Both the position numbers and the translations under genes were made by a program. The notes beneath the pieces were generated by a model, which did no database searches, was not told the origin of the DNA, and worked only from the letters and a program-made list of their open reading frames with translations. Source: Candidatus Aegiribacteria sp. (GTDB lineage: Bacteria > Fermentibacterota > Fermentibacteria > Fermentibacterales > Fermentibacteraceae). From it: 10,292 nt of DNA. Where the stretch lies: positions 1-10,292 of the forward strand of contig JAIOSX010000071.1 in NCBI GenBank assembly GCA_021107345.1. The letters are read 5' to 3'. Every line of letters begins with the position of its first letter. The stretch's first letter is position 1. Of this stretch, positions 1,033-10,292 are shown piece after piece.

Positions 1033-1046
1033 TCATTTGAAATATT

Positions 1047-1188
1047 GGTCGCGGGGTGCAGGAAGGCGGTGTGAATCCGCCACGGTAGCGCCACTGTAAC
1101 CGGGTACCAAACCCCATTGATGCCACTGCCGCAAGGTGGGAAGGCGGGGAAAGGGATGATCCGGAAGTCAGGATATTGCACCGCGGCC
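1047..1188 (+). promoter_or_regulatory. Cobalamin (B12) riboswitch aptamer
   Basis: The conserved cobalamin-riboswitch core is readable: GGTGTGAATCCGCCACGG (1069-1086), GCCACTGTAACC (1090-1101), TGCCACTG (1121-1128), GGTGGGAAGGCGG (1135-1147) and the B12 box CCGGAAGTCAGGA (1161-1173). The outer P1 stem closes well: 1047-1054 pairs with 1181-1188 (one G-U), then after a two-base bulge (1055-1056) 1057-1060 pairs with 1177-1180. It senses adenosylcobalamin or a related corrinoid and should switch off the downstream receptor/lipoprotein operon when the ligand is abundant. Its position directly upstream of a TonB-dependent receptor is the usual arrangement for btuB. The expression platform is listed separately. 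Confidence 0.95.
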
Positions 1189-1231
1189 TGAAACAGAGTC
1201 CCCGCTTAAAGGGATCAAGTTTTAGGCTCAG

Positions 1232-1267
1232 CCTCCGCGGCTTGTGTAAGCTGCAGGAGGTTTTTTT
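1232..1267 (+). terminator. Riboswitch expression platform: intrinsic terminator overlapping the SD of the receptor gene
   Basis: CCTCC (1232-1236) pairs with GGAGG (1256-1260), and CGGCTT (1238-1243) pairs with AAGCTG (1248-1253, one G-U), with a GTGT loop. Seven T's (1261-1267) follow immediately, giving a classic Rho-independent terminator. GGAGG at 1256-1260 is also the Shine-Dalgarno of the gene starting with GTG at 1268, and the T-run is exactly its 7-base spacer. The 5' part of the stem contains CCGCGG (1235-1240), identical to the self-complementary CCGCGG of the 3' strand of P1 (1181-1186). A ligand-free antiterminator pairing between those two copies is therefore possible; this last point is inference. 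Confidence 0.85.
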
Positions 1268-3214
1268 GTGCTACAGCTGCTTTTGCTTCTTATCGCCATG
1301 TCACAGGCTGAACTGTCCATTGCCGATTTATCCGGTCATCCTGTCACTGGAGCCTCCATCAGTACAGACAATGCACTCATCGGCATTTCTGATGTCATGG
1401 GAATTGTGTCCCTTCCCGATGGAACGGATTCAGTGGAAGTAAGGGCAATCGGATACGAAAAATGGGAAGGTATAATACCATCCTCCGGCAGGATATTTCT
1501 GGCGTCCGTTCCTGTTCCCTCCGGCATGGTAATTCTGGTAACTGCCACTCGCGGTGGATTCAGGGATCAGTTTCCCGCTACAACCGTCCTGAACAGGAAT
1601 GACATGGAATACCTGGGAAGATCCGGTTTGCGGAGCCTGAGCAGCAGAAGCAGCGGTATATACGTCCGTGAATACGGAGGAGCGATGCCGGTGATCTCCA
1701 TCTCCATAAGGGGAAGTGACGCGGCACATTCCGAATACTACGTCGATGGACATGAAATCAGCAGTTCAATGGACTGTCTCCCTGGAATGACGGTGGATCC
1801 TGTTCTGTTCGGCGGGCTTGAAATATCAAGAGGAGGGGGATCGGGCTTTCTCAAGGGAGGTATGGCAGGTACCCTGAACTTCGTTCCGGAATCCACAAAT
1901 TTGCCTCCAAGAGCTTCCCTGAATGCGGGTGATGACAGCTCAATCTCTTTTTCAGGTGGGTTTTCAGCAGGTATTAACAGGATAGCACTCAGCATCAGAA
2001 GACTTGCAGGTATATCAGGATCCACAGCTCATGACGGTGCCATTCTCATCCATGGGAATGCTCACCCTTTCAATTACGGCTTCCTTGCAATTGTCTCCTC
2101 CGGAGAAACAGAAAGCCCTGACTGGACCCTTCCCACCGACGGTACAAGAAAAAGGTACAGCCTTGACGGCTGGGGCAGGTGGAGTCCGGGCAGAATAAGG
2201 CTTTCAGCCGGCATGAGAACGGGAAGACATGAGTACCTGAGCACTACACCATCTTCGGTGGATGATACGCACGATGAACTTACCGGGGATATAAGTGCTG
2301 AATACACTGTTCCTTTACTTCCTTTTCATCTTGGTATTTCCGCAAGTTCCTCATTGGACCGAGTTTGGAGCACCTCTATAGGAGAAAGGGATAGGCTGAC
2401 CGTTGAAACAGCTGTAACCGCGGGATACGGTGACGGACTGTCACTCTCAGCTTCTGCGTCTGTTAATGCGGTCCCTTCTGCAAGAACCATGTATGGAGCG
2501 GTTCTTTCAGCAGGCCTGCCAGTGCTGGATTCGCTGGTGCTGCTGCATACTACAGCATCAACAGGTTTCAGGCGACCATCACTTAACGATCTCTACTGGC
2601 CGGAAGATAATTTTGCTCGTGGGAATCCTGATCTTCTTCCGGAAACATCATTGGAATTTGAAAGCGGAATTTCATTAAGTGGTCTTGACCGGCTAAAATT
2701 CTCGATAACAGGTTTTATTGCGGAAACAGATGATCTTATAAGGTGGGAGCCGGGGGAGGGCGGAAAATGGTCTCCCGTGAACATTTCAAGAGCTCTCAGA
2801 AAGGGGATCGAAACGGAAATATGGTTATCGAACAACCCCTTTGAAATAACCGCTGCTTTTACACTGCTTGAAGTTACGGACAACTGCAGTGAATCTGTGA
2901 ATTACGGTAGAATTCTTCCTTATACACCTGATTACACCTTCGGTGTTCAGGCAGGATTGGAATTTCCCTGCTGGGCTCACTGGTCAATATCCGCAAATGG
3001 AATGGGTGTAAGGTTTCAGAACTATAGCGAAACATCATGGATGCCTGCCTACACTACTTTTTCGGCTGGTGTCGATCTGCTTCTCGAATTCATGGGTAAT
3101 TTTTCTGTGAACGGCTCGATTGAAAACCTCTTCAACGATGAGTACCAGGAAACCAGCGGATACTCCGGGAAACCGAGAACTTTACACTTTGGAATCAATT
3201 GGAACGGAAATTGA
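1268..3214 (+). CDS. btuB: TonB-dependent outer-membrane receptor, BtuB-like (cobalamin uptake)
   Basis: A 648-residue outer-membrane transporter, predicted to import cobalamin or another corrinoid using TonB energy. Residues 1-14 are a short, very hydrophobic signal sequence without a basic residue. Residues 15-80 look like a small beta-sandwich (carboxypeptidase-regulatory-like) domain. A TonB-box-like segment (MVILVTA) lies at 87-93. The plug runs about 100-207 with ISIRGSDAAHSEYYVDG and the LEISRGGGSGFLKGG block. The rest is an alternating beta-barrel ending in NLFNDEYQ and GKPRTLHFGINW. Start choice: in-frame TAA at 1247-1249 leaves GTG 1268 as the first option, and GGAGG sits 7 bases upstream. 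Substrate assignment rests mainly on the cobalamin riboswitch just upstream and the BtuG-like gene 10 bases downstream; protein motifs alone would give only TonB-dependent receptor. The plug and barrel appear complete. Confidence 0.88.
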   Translation: MLQLLLLLIAMSQAELSIADLSGHPVTGASISTDNALIGISDVMGIVSLPDGTDSVEVRAIGYEKWEGIIPSSGRIFLASVPVPSGMVILVTATRGGFRDQFPATTVLNRNDMEYLGRSGLRSLSSRSSGIYVREYGGAMPVISISIRGSDAAHSEYYVDGHEISSSMDCLPGMTVDPVLFGGLEISRGGGSGFLKGGMAGTLNFVPESTNLPPRASLNAGDDSSISFSGGFSAGINRIALSIRRLAGISGSTAHDGAILIHGNAHPFNYGFLAIVSSGETESPDWTLPTDGTRKRYSLDGWGRWSPGRIRLSAGMRTGRHEYLSTTPSSVDDTHDELTGDISAEYTVPLLPFHLGISASSSLDRVWSTSIGERDRLTVETAVTAGYGDGLSLSASASVNAVPSARTMYGAVLSAGLPVLDSLVLLHTTASTGFRRPSLNDLYWPEDNFARGNPDLLPETSLEFESGISLSGLDRLKFSITGFIAETDDLIRWEPGEGGKWSPVNISRALRKGIETEIWLSNNPFEITAAFTLLEVTDNCSESVNYGRILPYTPDYTFGVQAGLEFPCWAHWSISANGMGVRFQNYSETSWMPAYTTFSAGVDLLLEFMGNFSVNGSIENLFNDEYQETSGYSGKPRTLHFGINWNGN

Positions 3215-3224
3215 AAGGAAAATG

Positions 3225-4235
3225 ATGAAAAGATACCGTCCCGGATTAATAACTCTTACCTGCTATATTCTGATAAGCCTGGTTACGGCATCATGCAATT
3301 CACCTGTTGAACCTAATCCTTCTTCTAACCCCGGTGGCACGGTGATTGCATGGTTCAACGGGCTTGGTAATACAGTTGATCTCTACTTCCCTGAAAGCGA
3401 TTCACTGGTATCAACGGCCTATGTTACCGGAAATGCACCAAACGATTTCCTATATCTTGGTTCGGACAATCTCGCGGTTCTGAGCTCCCTTTCCTCTATT
3501 CTCCAGGTAGTCGATCTGTCCGTATCGGGATCGATTCTGCACGAGATCGCCTTTCCGGGGAACAGCAATCCATATTCAATGGCTTACGGCTACGACAGTA
3601 TCTGGGTAACTCTGCTGCTCACCGATCAGATAGTAACCGTATCAACTGTGACATGGACGCTTGGCGGAGCAGTGGATGTTCCCGACTATCCTTACGGAAT
3701 CGCACTGGCAGCGGGTAACATCTTTGTAAGTCATGGTGATTACTTCCCGGATACAACACCCGGTGGTGTAACGGTCATCGATGCTGTAACCCTTGAGGAG
3801 ACCGGCTGGATAGACACCGGGCAGAACACAACCGAGCTGTGGTACTGCAGTGAGACGGGCAATATTCATGCATTCTCCTACACCTATACAGATGACGGTG
3901 TCGTTTCAATCATCGATCCCGTCACAGCAACGATCAAAGCCCAGGTTAATACCGGAGGTACTCCGTTCTCACCAGTCAGACTGGGCAACTCCTTTGCATG
4001 CTGTGATGGATTTGGATCATCAATATTCTTCTACAACGAATCCGGAGTACTTCAATCAACATGGACGCCCGATTCATCAATCACGCTGGCGGGCCTGGCT
4101 GTCAGCGGGGACACTCTTTACATGACCGATTTCGTCGAAGACAAGGTCTATATGGCTCTCTGGGAGTCTCAGGTTCTTCTTGGCTCACTAACAGCCGGAG
4201 ACGGCCCCCAGGGAATAGTTGCAATAGAAAGATAG
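3225..4235 (+). CDS. BtuG-like beta-propeller surface lipoprotein (B12-binding partner of BtuB)
   Basis: A 336-residue protein, second gene of the riboswitch operon. It starts with a lipoprotein signal: basic MKRYR, a hydrophobic core (8-20), then TASC with C24 as the likely lipidated cysteine, followed by a flexible NSPVEPNPSSNPGG linker. The remainder is built of short beta-strand repeats of the YVTN/YncE propeller type, such as NDFLYLGSDNLAVLSS, YSMAYGYDSIWVTL, YGIALAAGNIFVSHG and GVTVIDAVTLEETG; several have the pattern hydrophobic-gap-VIDP/VIDA. In Bacteroides, BtuG is a surface beta-propeller lipoprotein encoded next to BtuB that captures B12 with extreme affinity. Same fold type, size class, lipid anchor, gene order and riboswitch support the same role here, by inference. 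ATG 3225 is preferred (AAAGGA five bases upstream); ATG 3222 would add one Met. The open frame reaches back to 3120 inside the receptor gene, but a signal peptide would then be buried. Confidence 0.75.
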   Translation: MKRYRPGLITLTCYILISLVTASCNSPVEPNPSSNPGGTVIAWFNGLGNTVDLYFPESDSLVSTAYVTGNAPNDFLYLGSDNLAVLSSLSSILQVVDLSVSGSILHEIAFPGNSNPYSMAYGYDSIWVTLLLTDQIVTVSTVTWTLGGAVDVPDYPYGIALAAGNIFVSHGDYFPDTTPGGVTVIDAVTLEETGWIDTGQNTTELWYCSETGNIHAFSYTYTDDGVVSIIDPVTATIKAQVNTGGTPFSPVRLGNSFACCDGFGSSIFFYNESGVLQSTWTPDSSITLAGLAVSGDTLYMTDFVEDKVYMALWESQVLLGSLTAGDGPQGIVAIER

Positions 4236-4241
4236 GGAATT

Positions 4242-4322
4242 GGGGGTCGGGCCTAACATCTGAATATTTGTTACATATTAAACATAAACAGTCAATATGT
4301 TTAGATGTTAGGTCCGGCCCCC
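4242..4322 (+). repeat. Large imperfect palindrome, REPIN/MITE-like element or terminator hairpin
   Basis: Arms 4242-4261 and 4303-4322 are 20-base inverted repeats that differ only at two G-U-compatible positions. Pairing continues to 4267/4297, giving about 26 base pairs around a 29-base AT-rich loop. An alternative inner stem pairs 4273-4279 with 4294-4300. The arms are GC-rich at the outer ends (GGGGGTCGGGCC / GGTCCGGCCCCC) and AT-rich inside. Only three T's follow, so it is a poor classical terminator, although it lies 6 bases after a stop codon and could still end the B12 operon transcript. The outer arm resembles palindromic repeats I recall near REP-associated tyrosine transposases, but no transposase is present and only one copy is in the window. 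Confidence 0.7.
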
Positions 4323-4329
4323 TTTCTGC

Positions 4330-4358
4330 GTGACCGAAGGCTAATACTTTCGTATGAT
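4330..4358 (+). promoter_or_regulatory. Candidate sigma70-type promoter of the glycosyltransferase/K+ channel operon
   Basis: GTGACC (4330-4335) and TATGAT (4353-4358) are separated by 17 bases and match the -35 and -10 consensus at four and five positions. The predicted start near 4365 leaves a leader of about 30 bases before ATG 4397, which has GGGAGGT at 4387-4393. The promoter sits just after the palindrome, which would insulate it from the B12 operon. Confidence 0.5.
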
Positions 4359-4396
4359 ACTTATCCGTTCATTCAGGGAGATATCAGGGAGGTAGA

Positions 4397-6769
4397 ATGA
4401 CTGCTCTTTCATGTGACCTGCACGTTCATTCAAAGTATTCGAAGGAATCCGGACGATGGGCTCTCCGATCGCTCAAAGCTCCCGAAAGCTTTACTCCACC
4501 GGAGTTGATATACGAACTTGCGCGAAAGCGAGGCATGGATTTTGTCACAATAACAGACGTTAATACGATCGAAGGAGCACTTAGCATATCTCACCTGCCG
4601 GGAACTTTCATCAGTGAGGAAATAAGGACATACATTCCAGGAACCAGAACTTCGGTTCATATACTGGCATTCAACATCACGCAGCACCAGCATGATAAAA
4701 TAATCACCCTGAGAGATTCATTCCCGTCCCTGATGGATTATTTTGAGGATAAAGGCATAATCCATTCACTTGCTCACCCTTTCTATTTCCCGGATACCGA
4801 TCTGAAAAGCGATGAATTCGTAAACATCGTACAGAGAATCGGACTGGTCGAATCTCTTAACGGCACAAGATCCAGACAGGAAAATGAGTCAGTTCTTCCA
4901 ATTGTCAGATCAATAAAAAGCGATCCTGAGTTCACCGGTTTCACCGGAGGTTCCGATGATCACTGCGGCAGGTTCATTGGTCTGACATATACGGAAGTTG
5001 ATGGAGTGGAGAACCTGGAGGATTATCTGAATCGGATAAACCATGGGGAAGGACTCCCCAGAGGAGAACACGGTAACGCCATACGATCCGCCTACTCAGT
5101 TTACTCCATCGCATATTCCTTCTACAGAGACAGGCTTACCGCCAAAAAGATACCGGCAATAGCCACTCTGGCTGCAGATCGATTCTTCAGGCCATCTATT
5201 TCTTCCGATGAACCTACTGTATGGCATAAGGCGGATTTCCTTTTCCACCAGCTTATGAAGAAAGCCAAGAAATCAGGAGAATCGGATTTTGAAACGATAT
5301 TCGCCGATCAGCTTATAGAAATCGGCAAGGATCTTAATCTCCGTTCAGGAAGTCCCGAGCTTGAAGCCGAAGGAATAGACGAGCGAACGTTTGAAATTCT
5401 TAACAGGCTCAGTAACAAGTTATTCCAGCATTATTCCTCACTGCTGGTCAAACGGATCTCGGATGGAAGACTTCTCGATGCCCTGGAAGCATTTACCGCT
5501 CTTATCCCGGTTATTCTTCTCAATATTCCATATCCCATGGCATATCTGAGCAGAAAAAAAGGGAGAGAGGCCGTTGAAAGAATTGCTACTGCAGTTTCAC
5601 CGGATATCTCAGGAAGCATGAAAAATCCCGATAGAAGGGTCTGGTTCACCGATACAATAGATGATCTTAACGGTGTTTCCAGAACGATTCAGAAATGCAG
5701 CCGCCTGGCTATGGACAGCAGTAGGGACATGGCGGTGATAACCTCGCAGAGCAGACCTCTTTCCTTCCCTGGATGGGTGGTTAATTTCCCTCCGATCCGC
5801 GAATTCCCAGTACCGGATTATCATTCAAAACTCCTCTCCATTCCACCTTTTCTTGAAGTTCTCAGGTTCGTTGAGGATGAAGGGTTCGGTATGATGTACA
5901 TATCCACGCCGGGTCCTGTTGGATTTGCAGCGCTTGGCATATCAAGGATTCTTGGCATTCCTGTGGCGGGCATATACCACACCGATTATCCAAGGCATGT
6001 GAACCATATCGCCCAGGATGGCAAGATGGGGGAGTGGGCAGGAACTGCAGCGGCGTGGTTCTACAGCAATGTGGATGTAGTTCTGGTTCCAAGCATGTAC
6101 TACATGGATGATCTGGAGAAAATGGGAATTCCCAGGGATAGAATGAAGCTGTTTCCCAGGGGAACTGACTGCAGTGTTTTCTCCCCGGACTGGAAGTCGG
6201 ATGAATTCATATTGAAGTTCGGGGGGAATCCCGAATCCATGAGACTCTTGTACGCGGGGAGAATTTCCCGTGAAAAGGATCTGGATGTTCTGGCAAAGGC
6301 ATTCATAATCGCCCGCAGCACTATGCCTGACCTCGAGCTCTATCTGGCCGGGGACGGCCCATTCAGGGCGGATCTTCTTAATCAGCTCAGCGGAAAAGGA
6401 TGTTACTTCTGCGGAGTTCTACATGAGGAAGATCTTTCCAGGGCTTACGCATCATGTGATATTTTCGTTTTCCCAAGCTCAACCGATACTTATGGCAACT
6501 CCGTTCTTGAAGCTCAGGCTTCGGGACTTCCCGCAGTGGTCAGCGATATGGGGGGACCTCAGGAAATAATCGAACCCGACAAAACAGGCCTTGTTTTCTC
6601 AAGTCACGATCCTGTATCCCTGGCTGAAACCATACTGAGAATTGCTCAGAACAAGGAATTACGGGATTCAATGAGCAAAAATGCCAGGATTATGGCAACT
6701 GCAAGAACATGGGAAAAGGCATTCGATGAACTCTGGAGCATTTCACCAGATAATTTCAAACAAGTATAA
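4397..6769 (+). CDS. PHP-domain / GT4 glycosyltransferase fusion protein
   Basis: A 790-residue two-part enzyme. Residues 1-225 form a PHP (polymerase and histidinol phosphatase) metal-hydrolase domain: DLHVHSKYS (H9, H11), VTITDVNTIEG (51-60 region), SEEI (73-76), H88, HSLAHPF (H123, H127) and GGSDDH (184-189). About 230-405 is a mostly helical linker with a hydrophobic stretch (364-384) that could touch the membrane. Residues 413-790 are a GT-B fold retaining glycosyltransferase of family GT4: WFTDTIDDLNGVS (415-428), HTDYP (528-532), YAGRISREKDLD (619-630), AGDGPF (651-656) and the DX7E donor motif (D697, E705) in TDTYGNSVLEA. This GT part resembles the MgtA/SqdX-type subgroup, so a nucleotide-sugar donor and a lipid or surface-glycan acceptor are likely; neither is known. 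Odd: the histidine expected after TD in PHP motif II is V55. GGAGG at 4388-4392 supports the start. It ends 8 bases before the channel gene. Confidence 0.9.
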   Translation: MTALSCDLHVHSKYSKESGRWALRSLKAPESFTPPELIYELARKRGMDFVTITDVNTIEGALSISHLPGTFISEEIRTYIPGTRTSVHILAFNITQHQHDKIITLRDSFPSLMDYFEDKGIIHSLAHPFYFPDTDLKSDEFVNIVQRIGLVESLNGTRSRQENESVLPIVRSIKSDPEFTGFTGGSDDHCGRFIGLTYTEVDGVENLEDYLNRINHGEGLPRGEHGNAIRSAYSVYSIAYSFYRDRLTAKKIPAIATLAADRFFRPSISSDEPTVWHKADFLFHQLMKKAKKSGESDFETIFADQLIEIGKDLNLRSGSPELEAEGIDERTFEILNRLSNKLFQHYSSLLVKRISDGRLLDALEAFTALIPVILLNIPYPMAYLSRKKGREAVERIATAVSPDISGSMKNPDRRVWFTDTIDDLNGVSRTIQKCSRLAMDSSRDMAVITSQSRPLSFPGWVVNFPPIREFPVPDYHSKLLSIPPFLEVLRFVEDEGFGMMYISTPGPVGFAALGISRILGIPVAGIYHTDYPRHVNHIAQDGKMGEWAGTAAAWFYSNVDVVLVPSMYYMDDLEKMGIPRDRMKLFPRGTDCSVFSPDWKSDEFILKFGGNPESMRLLYAGRISREKDLDVLAKAFIIARSTMPDLELYLAGDGPFRADLLNQLSGKGCYFCGVLHEEDLSRAYASCDIFVFPSSTDTYGNSVLEAQASGLPAVVSDMGGPQEIIEPDKTGLVFSSHDPVSLAETILRIAQNKELRDSMSKNARIMATARTWEKAFDELWSISPDNFKQV

Positions 6770-6777
6770 GTGAAAAT

Positions 6778-8034
6778 ATGTTACTCTTGAGCAGATCCGA
6801 ACATTCCCGTAATCCATTCGGCAAGATGAACCGATGGCATGGTTTTGCATACTTCCTTTCGAGCAAAATCACTGTGGCCCTGACTCTTTTCGTGATTGTC
6901 ATGAGTATCGGTGTATCGGGTTTCATGATATTCACCACCCATAAATCAGGTATAGTGAAGGATCAACTTACAAATACCCTTCAGTACCTTCGAACTGTGG
7001 AATCTCCCACCACTCTTCAACTCTCCGAAATAGCTGATATACAAATGCAGCTGGATGAAAGCACTTTCGCCGGTGAACTTCTTCTTTCCGGTTATATGAC
7101 CGCAATCACAATCACCACAGTTGGATTCGATGATGTCATCAGGGAATACGCCTACGATTTCATGGATCAGAAATGGCGAAGGGCTTACAATATCTGGGTA
7201 ACGATATTTGTACTGATAGCCTATATGGCAATTCTTTACGTGAATGCTAATTTCGTAGCTTACCTCGTGGGAACACGCCTGGCGGAGAACATGAAAAGAC
7301 GTCTGCTGCTCAAGAATATTTCGCGTTTGAAAGGTCATTACATCGTATGCGGTTGCAGCGGAGCAGGTAGCGTTGTCATATCGGAGTTCCTCAGAACAGG
7401 AATACCCGTTGTGGGTATTGATGTCGGTGAAGACTCACCTTGCAACTTCAGGAAAAGAAATGGCTTCTTCTATCTTACCAGAGACAGATCGGATGATGTT
7501 CTCTTTGAAGAAGCGGGGATCAGCAAAGCCAGGGGGCTGGTATCTGTACTTCAGGACGATAGTGATAACCTCTATCTGACACTTACAGCACATCTTATGA
7601 ATGATGAACTCAAAATAGTCAGCAGGGCGGCAGGTGAGGAAAACGAGGAAAAACTTGCACTTGTAGGAGCCGACGTATCCTTCACACCATCCATCGCGGT
7701 TGGAAAGAAACTTGTTGCTGGTATTCTCAACAGAGAGACCATGGATTTCATGGAAAGGATGATTGACAGCAAGGATCAGAACTGCAGAATGGAGGAACAT
7801 ACAATCACCGACGACTGCCCCTCGATAGGAAAGACACTGAGTGAGATCAACCTCGGCAGGATAACCGGTATAAGTGTGTTTGCCATAATGAAACAGAATG
7901 GTTCGGTAGTGTACAATCCCGGAGCGGATTACATACTTGAACAGGCTGATGTTCTACTCGCCATAGAATCCCCTGAACAGCTCAAGCTTCTCGCCAGAAC
8001 CCTGCATCGGTCCGGGAAGAGAGGAATACTGTGA
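6778..8034 (+). CDS. Two-TM potassium channel with cytoplasmic RCK (TrkA-N/TrkA-C) domain
   Basis: A 418-residue inner-membrane K+ channel subunit of MthK/GsuK-like layout. TM1 is about 31-52, followed by an unusually long extracellular stretch (53-104), a pore helix with selectivity filter TTVGFDD (113-119), and TM2 about 138-164. The RCK N-lobe is about 185-310, starting HYIVCGCSGAG with the beta-2 acidic end near D215, and the RCK C-lobe (TrkA-C) is about 335-410. Four subunits would form the pore, with RCK domains sensing a nucleotide or ion. Two departures: the filter reads TVGFD instead of TVGYG, and the nucleotide-loop GxGxxG has serine (S194) at the middle glycine. The gene follows the glycosyltransferase by 8 bases with no clear SD, suggesting translational coupling; ATG 6826 is an alternative start that keeps TM1. 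Its stop overlaps the next gene by 4 bases. Confidence 0.88.
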   Translation: MLLLSRSEHSRNPFGKMNRWHGFAYFLSSKITVALTLFVIVMSIGVSGFMIFTTHKSGIVKDQLTNTLQYLRTVESPTTLQLSEIADIQMQLDESTFAGELLLSGYMTAITITTVGFDDVIREYAYDFMDQKWRRAYNIWVTIFVLIAYMAILYVNANFVAYLVGTRLAENMKRRLLLKNISRLKGHYIVCGCSGAGSVVISEFLRTGIPVVGIDVGEDSPCNFRKRNGFFYLTRDRSDDVLFEEAGISKARGLVSVLQDDSDNLYLTLTAHLMNDELKIVSRAAGEENEEKLALVGADVSFTPSIAVGKKLVAGILNRETMDFMERMIDSKDQNCRMEEHTITDDCPSIGKTLSEINLGRITGISVFAIMKQNGSVVYNPGADYILEQADVLLAIESPEQLKLLARTLHRSGKRGIL

Positions 8035-8789
8035 ACTATTCCGATAGCAACGGTCCGGTTTGTGTAGTATGCGGGGCCGGTGAAACGGGGCTTTTCGTTA
8101 TTAAGGAACTCGTTAAACATGGTTTTCCAGTTACTGCTGTGGATAAAGATCCCGATACCCTGAAAACAGCAGCTGACCTCGGTGAGAACGTAGGAACGGT
8201 ACAGGGCAACTGTCTTACAGACAGTATACTGAAGAAAGCAGATCTGATCGATGCACAGGCACTGTTCTGTGTACTTCCAGACGACAGAAGTAATGTGTTC
8301 CTCAGCCTTTCCGCAAGAAGGATCAACCCCGAGCTGGAGATATATTCGGTGGCATCCGATATCTCTGCAGAAAGGAAATTGAAGCTTGTTGGAACAAAAA
8401 GAACTGTTAATCAGGATATTGCGGAAGGATTCAGGATCTCAAATGAAATGATCCGACCCAATGTTGCGAGATTTCTTGACAGAATTGTCTTTGCCCGAGA
8501 GAATACTGAGGGTTATCTCAGTATAGATATCGGTAAGGGATGCCCTTCCGCAGGCTGGACACTTAAAAAGCTGCAACTGCACGGGGACACAGGTGTTGTG
8601 ATAATAGCCGTCAGGAGAAGAAACGATAGCTATGTTTACAGCCCTTCAGGAGATTACAGGCTGTCAGAAGATGATTGTCTTATATGCTTTGGTACAGAGG
8701 ATGACAGGAAAGCTATTCAGAACCTTCTGTGGAGCGTGCGGGAAAAAAAGGAAAAATGGGGCATGCTCCGGCATAAATTCGTGAAATAG
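8031..8789 (+). CDS. Stand-alone TrkA/RCK regulatory protein, partner of the K+ channel
   Basis: A 252-residue soluble protein with one TrkA-N Rossmann lobe (about 10-130) and one TrkA-C lobe (about 160-238). The nucleotide loop is intact: VCVVCGAGETG with G15, G17 and G20, and D38 at the end of the next strand (VTAVDKD). It has no membrane segment. It begins with GTG at 8031, overlapping the channel stop in the GTGA configuration, with GAGAGGA at 8019-8025 as SD, so the two products are made in coupled fashion. The likely role is to assemble with, or regulate, the RCK domains of the preceding channel and bind NAD(H) or ATP/ADP. By annotation habit it could be called TrkA, but no TrkH/KtrB transporter gene is in the window, so the channel is the better partner. 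It ends 3 bases from the opposing tRNA gene. Confidence 0.87.
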   Translation: MNYSDSNGPVCVVCGAGETGLFVIKELVKHGFPVTAVDKDPDTLKTAADLGENVGTVQGNCLTDSILKKADLIDAQALFCVLPDDRSNVFLSLSARRINPELEIYSVASDISAERKLKLVGTKRTVNQDIAEGFRISNEMIRPNVARFLDRIVFARENTEGYLSIDIGKGCPSAGWTLKKLQLHGDTGVVIIAVRRRNDSYVYSPSGDYRLSEDDCLICFGTEDDRKAIQNLLWSVREKKEKWGMLRHKFVK

Positions 8790-8964: not shown

Positions 8965-9026
8965 TGCGCTTATTACAATCCTTTGACTGCTTATCATGAC
9001 TTGCATTTTTGAGAGGATCTATTCAA

Positions 9027-10292
9027 ATGTTGAAGAAACTTGCATTAATTCTGTTTATAATGGCAGCTTTCTCTTTTGCAGGCAGAACAATGCTGTCGAA
9101 TAATTTCAGTTATTCTGTTCCCCATTACTCCGTCACACTCAGAGGCATCAATATGTCGGACATAAGAATCCTTGAGGAACAGGGATTCCTCATCGAATGG
9201 GCACACAGCGGAAAGGCCATGATATACGTTGATGCACCACAGGAGGAAATGCTTCGTCATATGGGCTTTAATCCTGCTCAGGTGCCTATAACAGAACCCC
9301 TTGTACCCTATCCATCACTTCAGGACATTTACGATTCAATTGATGCTGTTATTGCCGCCCACCCGGGAATTTGCAGGAAGGTCACAATAGGCACCAGTGT
9401 TGAGGGAAGATCCATTGTAGCTGTTGTCGTTTCCGACAATGTCTCCACCGAGGAAATCGAACCCGAGATGAGAATCCACGGCGGAATACATGGTGATGAA
9501 CCGGCAGCCTCAACCACAACTCTCAACTTCCTCGAAGTTCTGACGGACAATTACGCCACAAGCCCGATGTGCACATACATAGTGAACAATACTGAAACCT
9601 GGATAATTCCGGTTCTCAATCCGGATGGTTACTTTCATGATCAAAGGACAAATGCACACGGAATCGATCTGAACAGGAACCTCAGCTACATGTGGACCGG
9701 TTCTGGAGGTGGATCAGCTCCATTCTGTGAACCCGAAACCGCCGCTCTGCGAGACCTCACGATGCAGAGCTGGCCGGATATAGAGAATTTCATTAATCCC
9801 TTCACAGCCGGTCTCTCTCTGCATGGCGGCGAGAAATGCATTAATACTGTATGGAACTACACCGAGGTTCCTCTTCCTGAAGATTCGGGACTGATACATC
9901 AGCAGGCAATTGATTACGCCTCTGCTCCGGGAATAGTAAGCTATTTCAGCGGAGGTTTCTGGATCGCCTATCCGGGAGCCAGCTGGTACGCGATTAATGG
10001 TGATGTCAACGACTGGAGCTACGGCGAATGCGGAACTGTCGACCATACAATAGAAGTCCACGAGAATAAGCATGTATCTGACTGGCCGGGTGTTGACAAC
10101 GCACACTACATGGCAATACTGGAGTTTTTCACGAACAGCACCTACGGCATCTGGGGTACTGTAACCGATTCATCCGGAAACCCTATCGACGCCCAGCTTG
10201 CATTAGGTATCCACGACGGTACCGATTCAGAATCACTCAGATTCTGCAGAACGGACGTGACCCTCGGTGATTACCATAAAGCACTTCTTCCG
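9027..10292 (+). CDS. Secreted M14 family zinc carboxypeptidase, 3' end outside the window
   Basis: The frame is open for 422 codons to the window edge. Residues 1-19 are a signal peptide (MLKK, hydrophobic core, SFA before GR), so the enzyme is exported. A short pro-like region (about 20-95) precedes the M14 catalytic domain (about 96-370). Zinc ligands are H155 and E158 in HGGIHGDEPA and H266 in SLHGGEK. NPDGY and DLNRN (N216, R217) supply substrate-carboxylate contacts, and E343 in TIEVHE is the likely general base. All key residues are present, so it should hydrolyse C-terminal residues of peptides or related amide bonds. After about residue 373, GIWGTVTDSSGNPI starts a transthyretin-like carboxypeptidase regulatory domain, which is cut off. 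ATG 9027 is supported by AGAGGA at 9012-9017, nine bases upstream. Further C-terminal sorting domains, common in such secreted peptidases, would lie beyond the window. Confidence 0.92.
   Translation, partial: MLKKLALILFIMAAFSFAGRTMLSNNFSYSVPHYSVTLRGINMSDIRILEEQGFLIEWAHSGKAMIYVDAPQEEMLRHMGFNPAQVPITEPLVPYPSLQDIYDSIDAVIAAHPGICRKVTIGTSVEGRSIVAVVVSDNVSTEEIEPEMRIHGGIHGDEPAASTTTLNFLEVLTDNYATSPMCTYIVNNTETWIIPVLNPDGYFHDQRTNAHGIDLNRNLSYMWTGSGGGSAPFCEPETAALRDLTMQSWPDIENFINPFTAGLSLHGGEKCINTVWNYTEVPLPEDSGLIHQQAIDYASAPGIVSYFSGGFWIAYPGASWYAINGDVNDWSYGECGTVDHTIEVHENKHVSDWPGVDNAHYMAILEFFTNSTYGIWGTVTDSSGNPIDAQLALGIHDGTDSESLRFCRTDVTLGDYHKALLP

Follow-up and report, generated by a model that had tools for sequence, protein, structure and literature searches.

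The window analysed here, a stretch of 10,292 nucleotides from Candidatus Aegiribacteria sp. (positions 1 to 10,292 of contig JAIOSX010000071.1, assembly GCA_021107345.1), carries a cobalamin riboswitch followed by the genes of a TonB-dependent receptor and a beta-propeller lipoprotein. A first-pass annotation, made from the letters of the window, had proposed a BtuB plus BtuG-like unit for vitamin B12 capture and import outside Bacteroides, and this view is supported by the predicted folds, by the pairing of the genes, by their linkage to a riboswitch and by taxonomy: the unit is probably a BtuBG-type cobamide capture-and-import unit of the phylum Fermentibacterota, whose propeller lipoprotein, or lid, is more likely a distant BtuG homologue than an unrelated recruit. 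Its elements are as follows.

1035–1199, plus strand: cobalamin riboswitch aptamer RF00174 (cmscan, 77.7 bits against a gathering cut-off of 31.5, E 3e-18, full model 1–189)
1230–1262, plus strand: expression-platform hairpin (-20.9 kcal/mol, z -3.96)
1268–3214, plus strand: BtuB-like TonB-dependent receptor, 648 aa, GTG start (Pfam plug and barrel, profile, fold)
3222–4235, plus strand: BtuG-like seven-bladed propeller lipoprotein, 337 aa (AlphaFold2 (AF2) fold, Foldseek)
3222–3296, plus strand: signal peptide and probable lipid-anchor Cys25 (LVTASC; Cys25 conservation)
3400–4196, plus strand: propeller body of apparently separate history, about residues 60–324 (conflicting trees, identity breakpoints)

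The canonical cobalamin aptamer and the TonB-dependent receptor named in the first-pass annotation are both borne out, the former by its RF00174 score and the latter by Pfam matches to TonB_dep_Rec_b-barrel (6e-25) and Plug (2e-6). The lipoprotein gene had been placed 10 bases behind the receptor, which is correct when counted from the receptor stop to the second ATG (3225), the gap to the first ATG (3222) being 7 nt. By profile and by fold, BtuB is the closest TonB receptor to that of the window: E. coli BtuB accounts for the six best PDB matches of the receptor family profile (best E 7e-56), above every other TonB receptor listed, and rows 1–13 of the Foldseek search with the AF2 model of the receptor (pLDDT 87.1) are all BtuB. 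That the host is not Bacteroides also agrees with our searches, which scored about 8,000 candidates each and gave 88 listed homologues of the lipoprotein and, with its family profile, 130, of which 120 were listed. Among the matches listed, the only organism names are Candidatus Aegiribacteria, Candidatus Sabulitectum, Fermentibacteraceae and Fermentibacteria, and all 16 loci located in genome contigs stand in records with Aegiribacteria or Fermentibacteria(ceae) in the title. The named relatives are thus Candidatus Aegiribacteria and other Fermentibacterota, not Bacteroidota; NCBI places Aegiribacteria in the Fibrobacteres, Chlorobi and Bacteroidetes (FCB) group.

The 3' arm of the hairpin at 1230–1262 holds the Shine-Dalgarno sequence AGGAGG (1255–1260), and seven U (1261–1267) and the GTG start at 1268 come directly after it; one of 200 shuffles was as stable. 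The hairpin can be read as an intrinsic terminator, as a lock on the ribosome site, or as both; a consensus terminator scan did not have it among its calls. By analogy with known B12 riboswitches, the operon would be expressed under B12 scarcity and switched off once the riboswitch binds B12.

Fold and predicted role of the lipoprotein

Structure prediction of the lipoprotein, which the first-pass annotation had suggested as a check, returns a propeller and no other fold: the AF2 model (pLDDT 92.4) has seven blades and 28 strands, and in a Foldseek search with this model rows 1–16 of the PDB matches are all BtuG. Identity to BtuG in the fold comparison is 13–17%. The lipoprotein family profile matches BtuG1 at E 4e-11, and two features recur in both the window family and BtuG1: a loop containing ND and a long loop in blade 4. 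Since the NCBIfam YVTN repeat reaches 17.5 bits on the lipoprotein against a cut-off of 27.85, the earlier description of YVTN/YncE-type repeats holds through the profile of the family and the fold prediction, and not through the repeat score of the single protein; the link to BtuG, too, is missed by single-protein searches and visible only by profiles or folds. The mature lipoprotein is acidic, with a net charge of -29 and a pI of 4.05 (for BtuG2, the available text of PMC10404256 gives a charge of -18), and four of its 16 conserved aromatic positions (Y174, Y222, F264 and F304) lie in B-C loops of one face. Its hydrophobic N-terminus ends in LVTASC, and conservation of the cysteine of this motif, Cys25, is at least 90% among 44 homologues.

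By analogy with the BtuBG structures, the lipoprotein would be anchored in the outer leaflet of the outer membrane, its acidic seven-bladed disc would catch corrinoids on the conserved loop face and close on the receptor as a lid, and the vitamin would then be handed to the receptor for TonB-driven import. B12 binding, outer-face lipid anchoring, the complex, the lid motion and the handover are thus properties that we infer from likeness. The traits that mark BtuG include corrinoid binding at sub-picomolar level and a stable complex with BtuB in which the receptor loop EL8 sits in the pocket of the lid. One could also speculate that the lipoprotein faces inward, as a periplasmic chaperone passing B12 from the receptor to an inner-membrane ABC importer, since periplasmic propeller metallochaperones such as AztD have the same fold; the sequence itself does not decide the membrane side, but the likeness to BtuG makes this very unlikely. 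A further alternative is that the lipoprotein belongs to the B12 regulon and does not bind B12 but, for example, helps the receptor to assemble or protects it. Linkage to a riboswitch is no proof of binding, and BtuL of B. theta showed no cobalamin binding according to the available text of PMC12751083. Against this stand the BtuG-like fold and the conserved aromatics in four loops of one face, in view of which we regard a non-binding role as most improbable.

Conservation of the pair and apparent exchange of its propeller body

We searched 42 genomes of the phylum, all of them metagenome bins of unstated completeness, for the window-type, receptor-linked lipoprotein family (A1), counting E 1e-20 or better as a strong match. 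Such a match is present in 36 genomes (37 at 1e-8). Of these, 34 have a contig that shows the upstream side, and in 33 the gene directly before the lipoprotein is the receptor; the contigs of G027 and G042 end too early. A B12 riboswitch stands ahead of the pair in all 28 genomes with a contig reaching that far (contig ends cut off its position in G001, G003, G008, G013, G017, G027 and G042); 27 of these riboswitches are over the curated cut-off, and that of G037 has 48.1 against 50 bits. With the window included, 29 of 29 lie 44–95 nt before the receptor on the same strand. The arrangement is not one of chance, because the riboswitch precedes the receptor in the window and in every reachable genome. 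The survey of related genomes put forward in the first-pass annotation thus finds the pair conserved behind B12 riboswitches, and homologues of the lipoprotein are normally beside btuB rather than away from it.

The exception is G012, where a riboswitch directly precedes the lipoprotein, which stands alone, possibly through an assembly fault; its receptor, of the same family, closes a second operon consisting of a riboswitch, a cobC-like histidine phosphatase, cobU, cobT, cobS and the receptor (L102 3637–8635; L015 4985–5869). Six genomes (G016, G019, G021, G026, G033 and G040) are without a strong A1 match, two of which, G019 and G021, have a riboswitch before a receptor that runs off the contig. 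One branch has the adenosylcobalamin (AdoCbl)-type aptamer RF01482 in place of RF00174 before the pair (L059, L060, L065–L067, L069, L071, L073, L074 and L076), and the receptor gene of G028 (L076 1447–3280) reads in several frames, by frameshift or sequencing error. Extra B12 riboswitches occur in G034 (L088, L089, L090), before genes resembling cobinamide salvage (CobS), before a 414-aa gene of no assigned role and before a lone BtuB-like receptor. Apparent lid-receptor fusions in G020 and G018 (open frames of 1,026 and 1,036 aa) were rejected, the upstream part being an out-of-frame, Arg-rich reading of the GC-rich receptor gene.

The cells of the phylum seem to depend on imported cobamides. 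CbiC, a de novo corrin-ring step, was found in none of the 42 genomes, which fits such a dependence, and in 7 of 14 control genomes; given the nature of the bins, single gene absences mean little. Of the 42, 40 have a FecCD-type permease and 38 a member of the methylmalonyl-CoA mutase family; the activation domain of B12 methionine synthase was detected in 12 and CobS in 4.

Within this conserved unit, the propeller body seems, from sequence comparison, to have been exchanged as a cassette between lineages (loci L002, L006 and L011), with the signal peptide retained. We built trees of up to 14 genomes for the upstream oxidoreductase (12), the receptor (14), the downstream glycosyltransferase (12) and the propeller (14). 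G002, G006 and G024 stay together (100/100) in the oxidoreductase, receptor and glycosyltransferase trees, while in the propeller tree G002 and G024 group with the window and G023 (100/100), on a long branch (0.76) that excludes G006 and all other genomes. Approximately unbiased (AU) tests reject G002, G006 and G024 as a group for the propeller (P 4.5e-55) and the four lid-I genomes as a group for the receptor (P 1.4e-5), P values that do not come from a blind test, as the groups were first noticed in the same data. Each of the two receptor types is seen with each of the two lid types.

The same picture is seen in DNA identity per 100 bases. The window and G011 are 72–94% identical over the riboswitch, receptor and glycosyltransferase, 67–70% at 4200–4399 and 47–60% at 3400–4199; for the window and G002, the values are 49–70% over the receptor and 66–85% at 3300–4199. 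The glycosyltransferase, at 57–84% identity to that of G002, gives a less sharp contrast on its side. At the other end, the signal peptide of the window lid is more like those found with receptors of the same lineage: in two 12-residue blocks the identity to these is 0.75 and 0.61, as compared with 0.38 and 0.38. Blocks 25–60, in the linker, favour neither side, and the similarity is reversed from about residue 61. In BtuG2, the available text of PMC10404256 describes the stretch after the lipid anchor as held by the receptor and likely a hinge; by analogy, the retained N-terminus of the exchanged lids may be connected with such a stretch. Receptor and lid identities are correlated (Mantel r 0.85, reached by 0 of 2000 permutations), but this mostly reflects shared ancestry and we draw no evidence of receptor-lid interaction from it. 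Sixteen columns split the alpha-type receptors into two with lid I and six with lid II, too few genomes to interpret.

As for the surroundings of the unit, its 5' neighbour is a gene end with a weak match to an oxidoreductase dependent on flavin adenine dinucleotide (FAD). Downstream of the lipoprotein lies one further gene:

4397–6769: PHP/CehA-like N-terminal part (below cut-off) joined to a GT4 glycosyltransferase

Of the 14 loci compared, 12 have a homologue of this glycosyltransferase gene beside the receptor-lipoprotein pair. Two neighbouring TrkA-type genes (6778–8789), the first with a weak ion-channel match, are followed by a transfer RNA on the minus strand (8869–8796) and by a zinc carboxypeptidase (M14; 9009–10292) that runs off the end of the window.

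A second propeller and the origin of the lid

The phylum holds 51 RF00174 sites over the cut-off, 19 of which, in 18 genomes, lie 67–95 nt before the gene of a second propeller of about 398 aa, here called A4 (operon loci L047–L050, L053, L079, L082–L087, L091–L096 and L101). Its profile comprises 17 sequences, with members chosen from riboswitch loci, and was followed by a search of the 42 whole genomes, of which 20 contain A4 at E 1e-20 or better; beyond the 19 riboswitch loci this search found A4 in G042 (763 nt behind the riboswitch) and as a fragment in G010, and no other strong member away from those loci. None of the 17 aligned members has a lipobox and 16 have a C-terminal secretion sorting domain, and we infer that the second propeller is secreted.

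A protein of about 270 aa follows A4 in the 19 loci; it is interrupted in G028, and one of the G002 copies is shortened. It carries the sorting domain in 7 of 13 cases and otherwise belongs to no known family: an identity as DUF4465 (the BtuJ-type B12 binder) found no Pfam or PDB support and was discarded, the similarity to the Leptospira LIC_13355 lipoproteins (NCBIfam) is weak (1.5e-4, far below cut-off), and tblastn of plasmids with this protein gave no match. In G042 (L077/L078), two B12 riboswitches stand side by side in opposite directions, one for the propeller and the other for the partner, and in G016 (L080) the partner has its own riboswitch beside an opposite-facing one, the propeller side running off the contig.

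The first-pass annotation had left it undecided whether the lid is a distant or an independently formed version of BtuG. A4 is homologous to the window lid (hhalign probability 99.1%, E 9.4e-19), and the nine best PDB matches of its profile are BtuG2, BtuG3 and 3dsm chains at E about 1e-9, followed by NHL-repeat and designed propellers from 8e-8, with BtuG1 only at 6e-4; DUF5074 is found in 16 of the 17 A4 members (best 5e-9). Because A4 in this way bridges the window lid to BtuG by sequence, common descent is likelier than convergence, although the matter is not settled.

Several observations weigh against this reading. The window lipoprotein alone matches no Pfam family over cut-off, including DUF5074 (PF16819), the profile that the first-pass annotation had suggested as a check; among its relatives, 9 of 44 reach DUF5074 at E 0.1 or better, and in controls the same model also matches propellers in genomes without BtuG. 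An archaeal YVTN propeller (1l0q) beats BtuG by profile and ties with it by fold. Finally, 30 of the 44 homologues fit a narrow lipobox pattern and the window protein, with Thr at -3, does not; its LVTASC site presumably fits the broader PROSITE lipoprotein rule. The DUF5074 controls and the atypical lipobox led us to lower slightly our confidence in the BtuBG-type unit as a whole and to raise it in convergent recruitment, in which a generic YVTN/YncE propeller would have been taken up as a B12-receptor lid without kinship to BtuG and would work alike. The rank of 1l0q, the low identity to BtuG and the wide reach of DUF5074 as the bridging family all favour such a recruitment. We know of no receptor or B12 link for 1l0q, which comes from an archaeal S-layer protein. 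Set against recruitment are the unbroken run of BtuG at the top of the Foldseek rows, the BtuG matches of A4 and the two loops in common with BtuG1, and on balance we find it unlikely. While we thus favour a distant BtuG homologue, we do not class the window lipoprotein as BtuG proper, since it fails the curated DUF5074 family test and its binding of B12 is a prediction.

Significance and comparison with known systems

Wexler et al. found BtuG only in Bacteroidetes among 313 human-gut genomes and discussed it as a possible answer to gut crowding (available text of PMC6143338), and according to Abellon-Ruiz et al., TonB receptors with a lipoprotein cap seem to be exclusive to Bacteroidetes (available text of PMC10404256). 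Fermentibacterota were probably not covered by the 313 gut genomes. In open-licence PMC literature, the titles and abstract openings among the matches listed mention no BtuG outside Bacteroidetes and no B12 uptake in Fermentibacterota. Judged from sequence, lipoprotein-capped B12 receptors would extend to a phylum besides Bacteroidota, and the conservation of a BtuBG-like pair in a phylum represented here only by metagenome bins suggests that lids of this kind are not confined to Bacteroidetes or to the gut. The lid exchanges that seem to have occurred in nature could serve as ready-made chimeras for the study of lid-receptor recognition, and the second propeller points to B12 capture in a released form.

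One could tentatively go further, to a scheme that we consider possible but would not bet on, in which lids of the BtuG type predate Bacteroidota or reach beyond it, and take two forms in Fermentibacterota. In the receptor-linked form, the propeller body would be traded as a cassette on a fixed receptor and signal peptide, perhaps against phages or bacteriocins or for cobamide preference. In the other, the sorting-domain BtuG and its partner, under their own B12 riboswitches, would constitute a released or surface-tethered B12 trap, a "cobalophore protein" feeding the receptor-linked lid, much as HasA delivers heme to HasR.

Among known systems, E. coli BtuB has the receptor fold of the window protein and is its best profile match. 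What sets the window receptor apart is an additional N-terminal domain (about residues 15–80) ahead of the plug and a score far below the cut-off of the NCBI BtuB equivalog TIGR01779 (74.6 against 599.7 bits); according to the available text of PMC6143338, E. coli has no BtuG homologue. XusA-XusB (DUF4374) of Bacteroides likewise combines a TonB receptor with a seven-bladed propeller lipoprotein (available text of PMC13142918), but its substrate is a siderophore; XusB is absent among the best 50 Foldseek rows listed for the lipoprotein, which is no evidence either way. The nearest likeness is to BtuB-BtuG of Bacteroides thetaiotaomicron (BT1953-54 and paralogues), which has the B12 riboswitch, the BtuB-type receptor and the adjacent lipoprotein with its acidic, seven-bladed lid, in an organism that also has no B12 pathway (available text of PMC6143338). 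The window unit differs in its phylum, in its low identity to BtuG, in the missing DUF5074 match and in a propeller body that seems to have been exchanged between Fermentibacterota lineages. In blade architecture, too, the two depart from each other: blade 6 of BtuG2 has two strands (available text of PMC10404256), whereas the window model has four strands in all seven blades.

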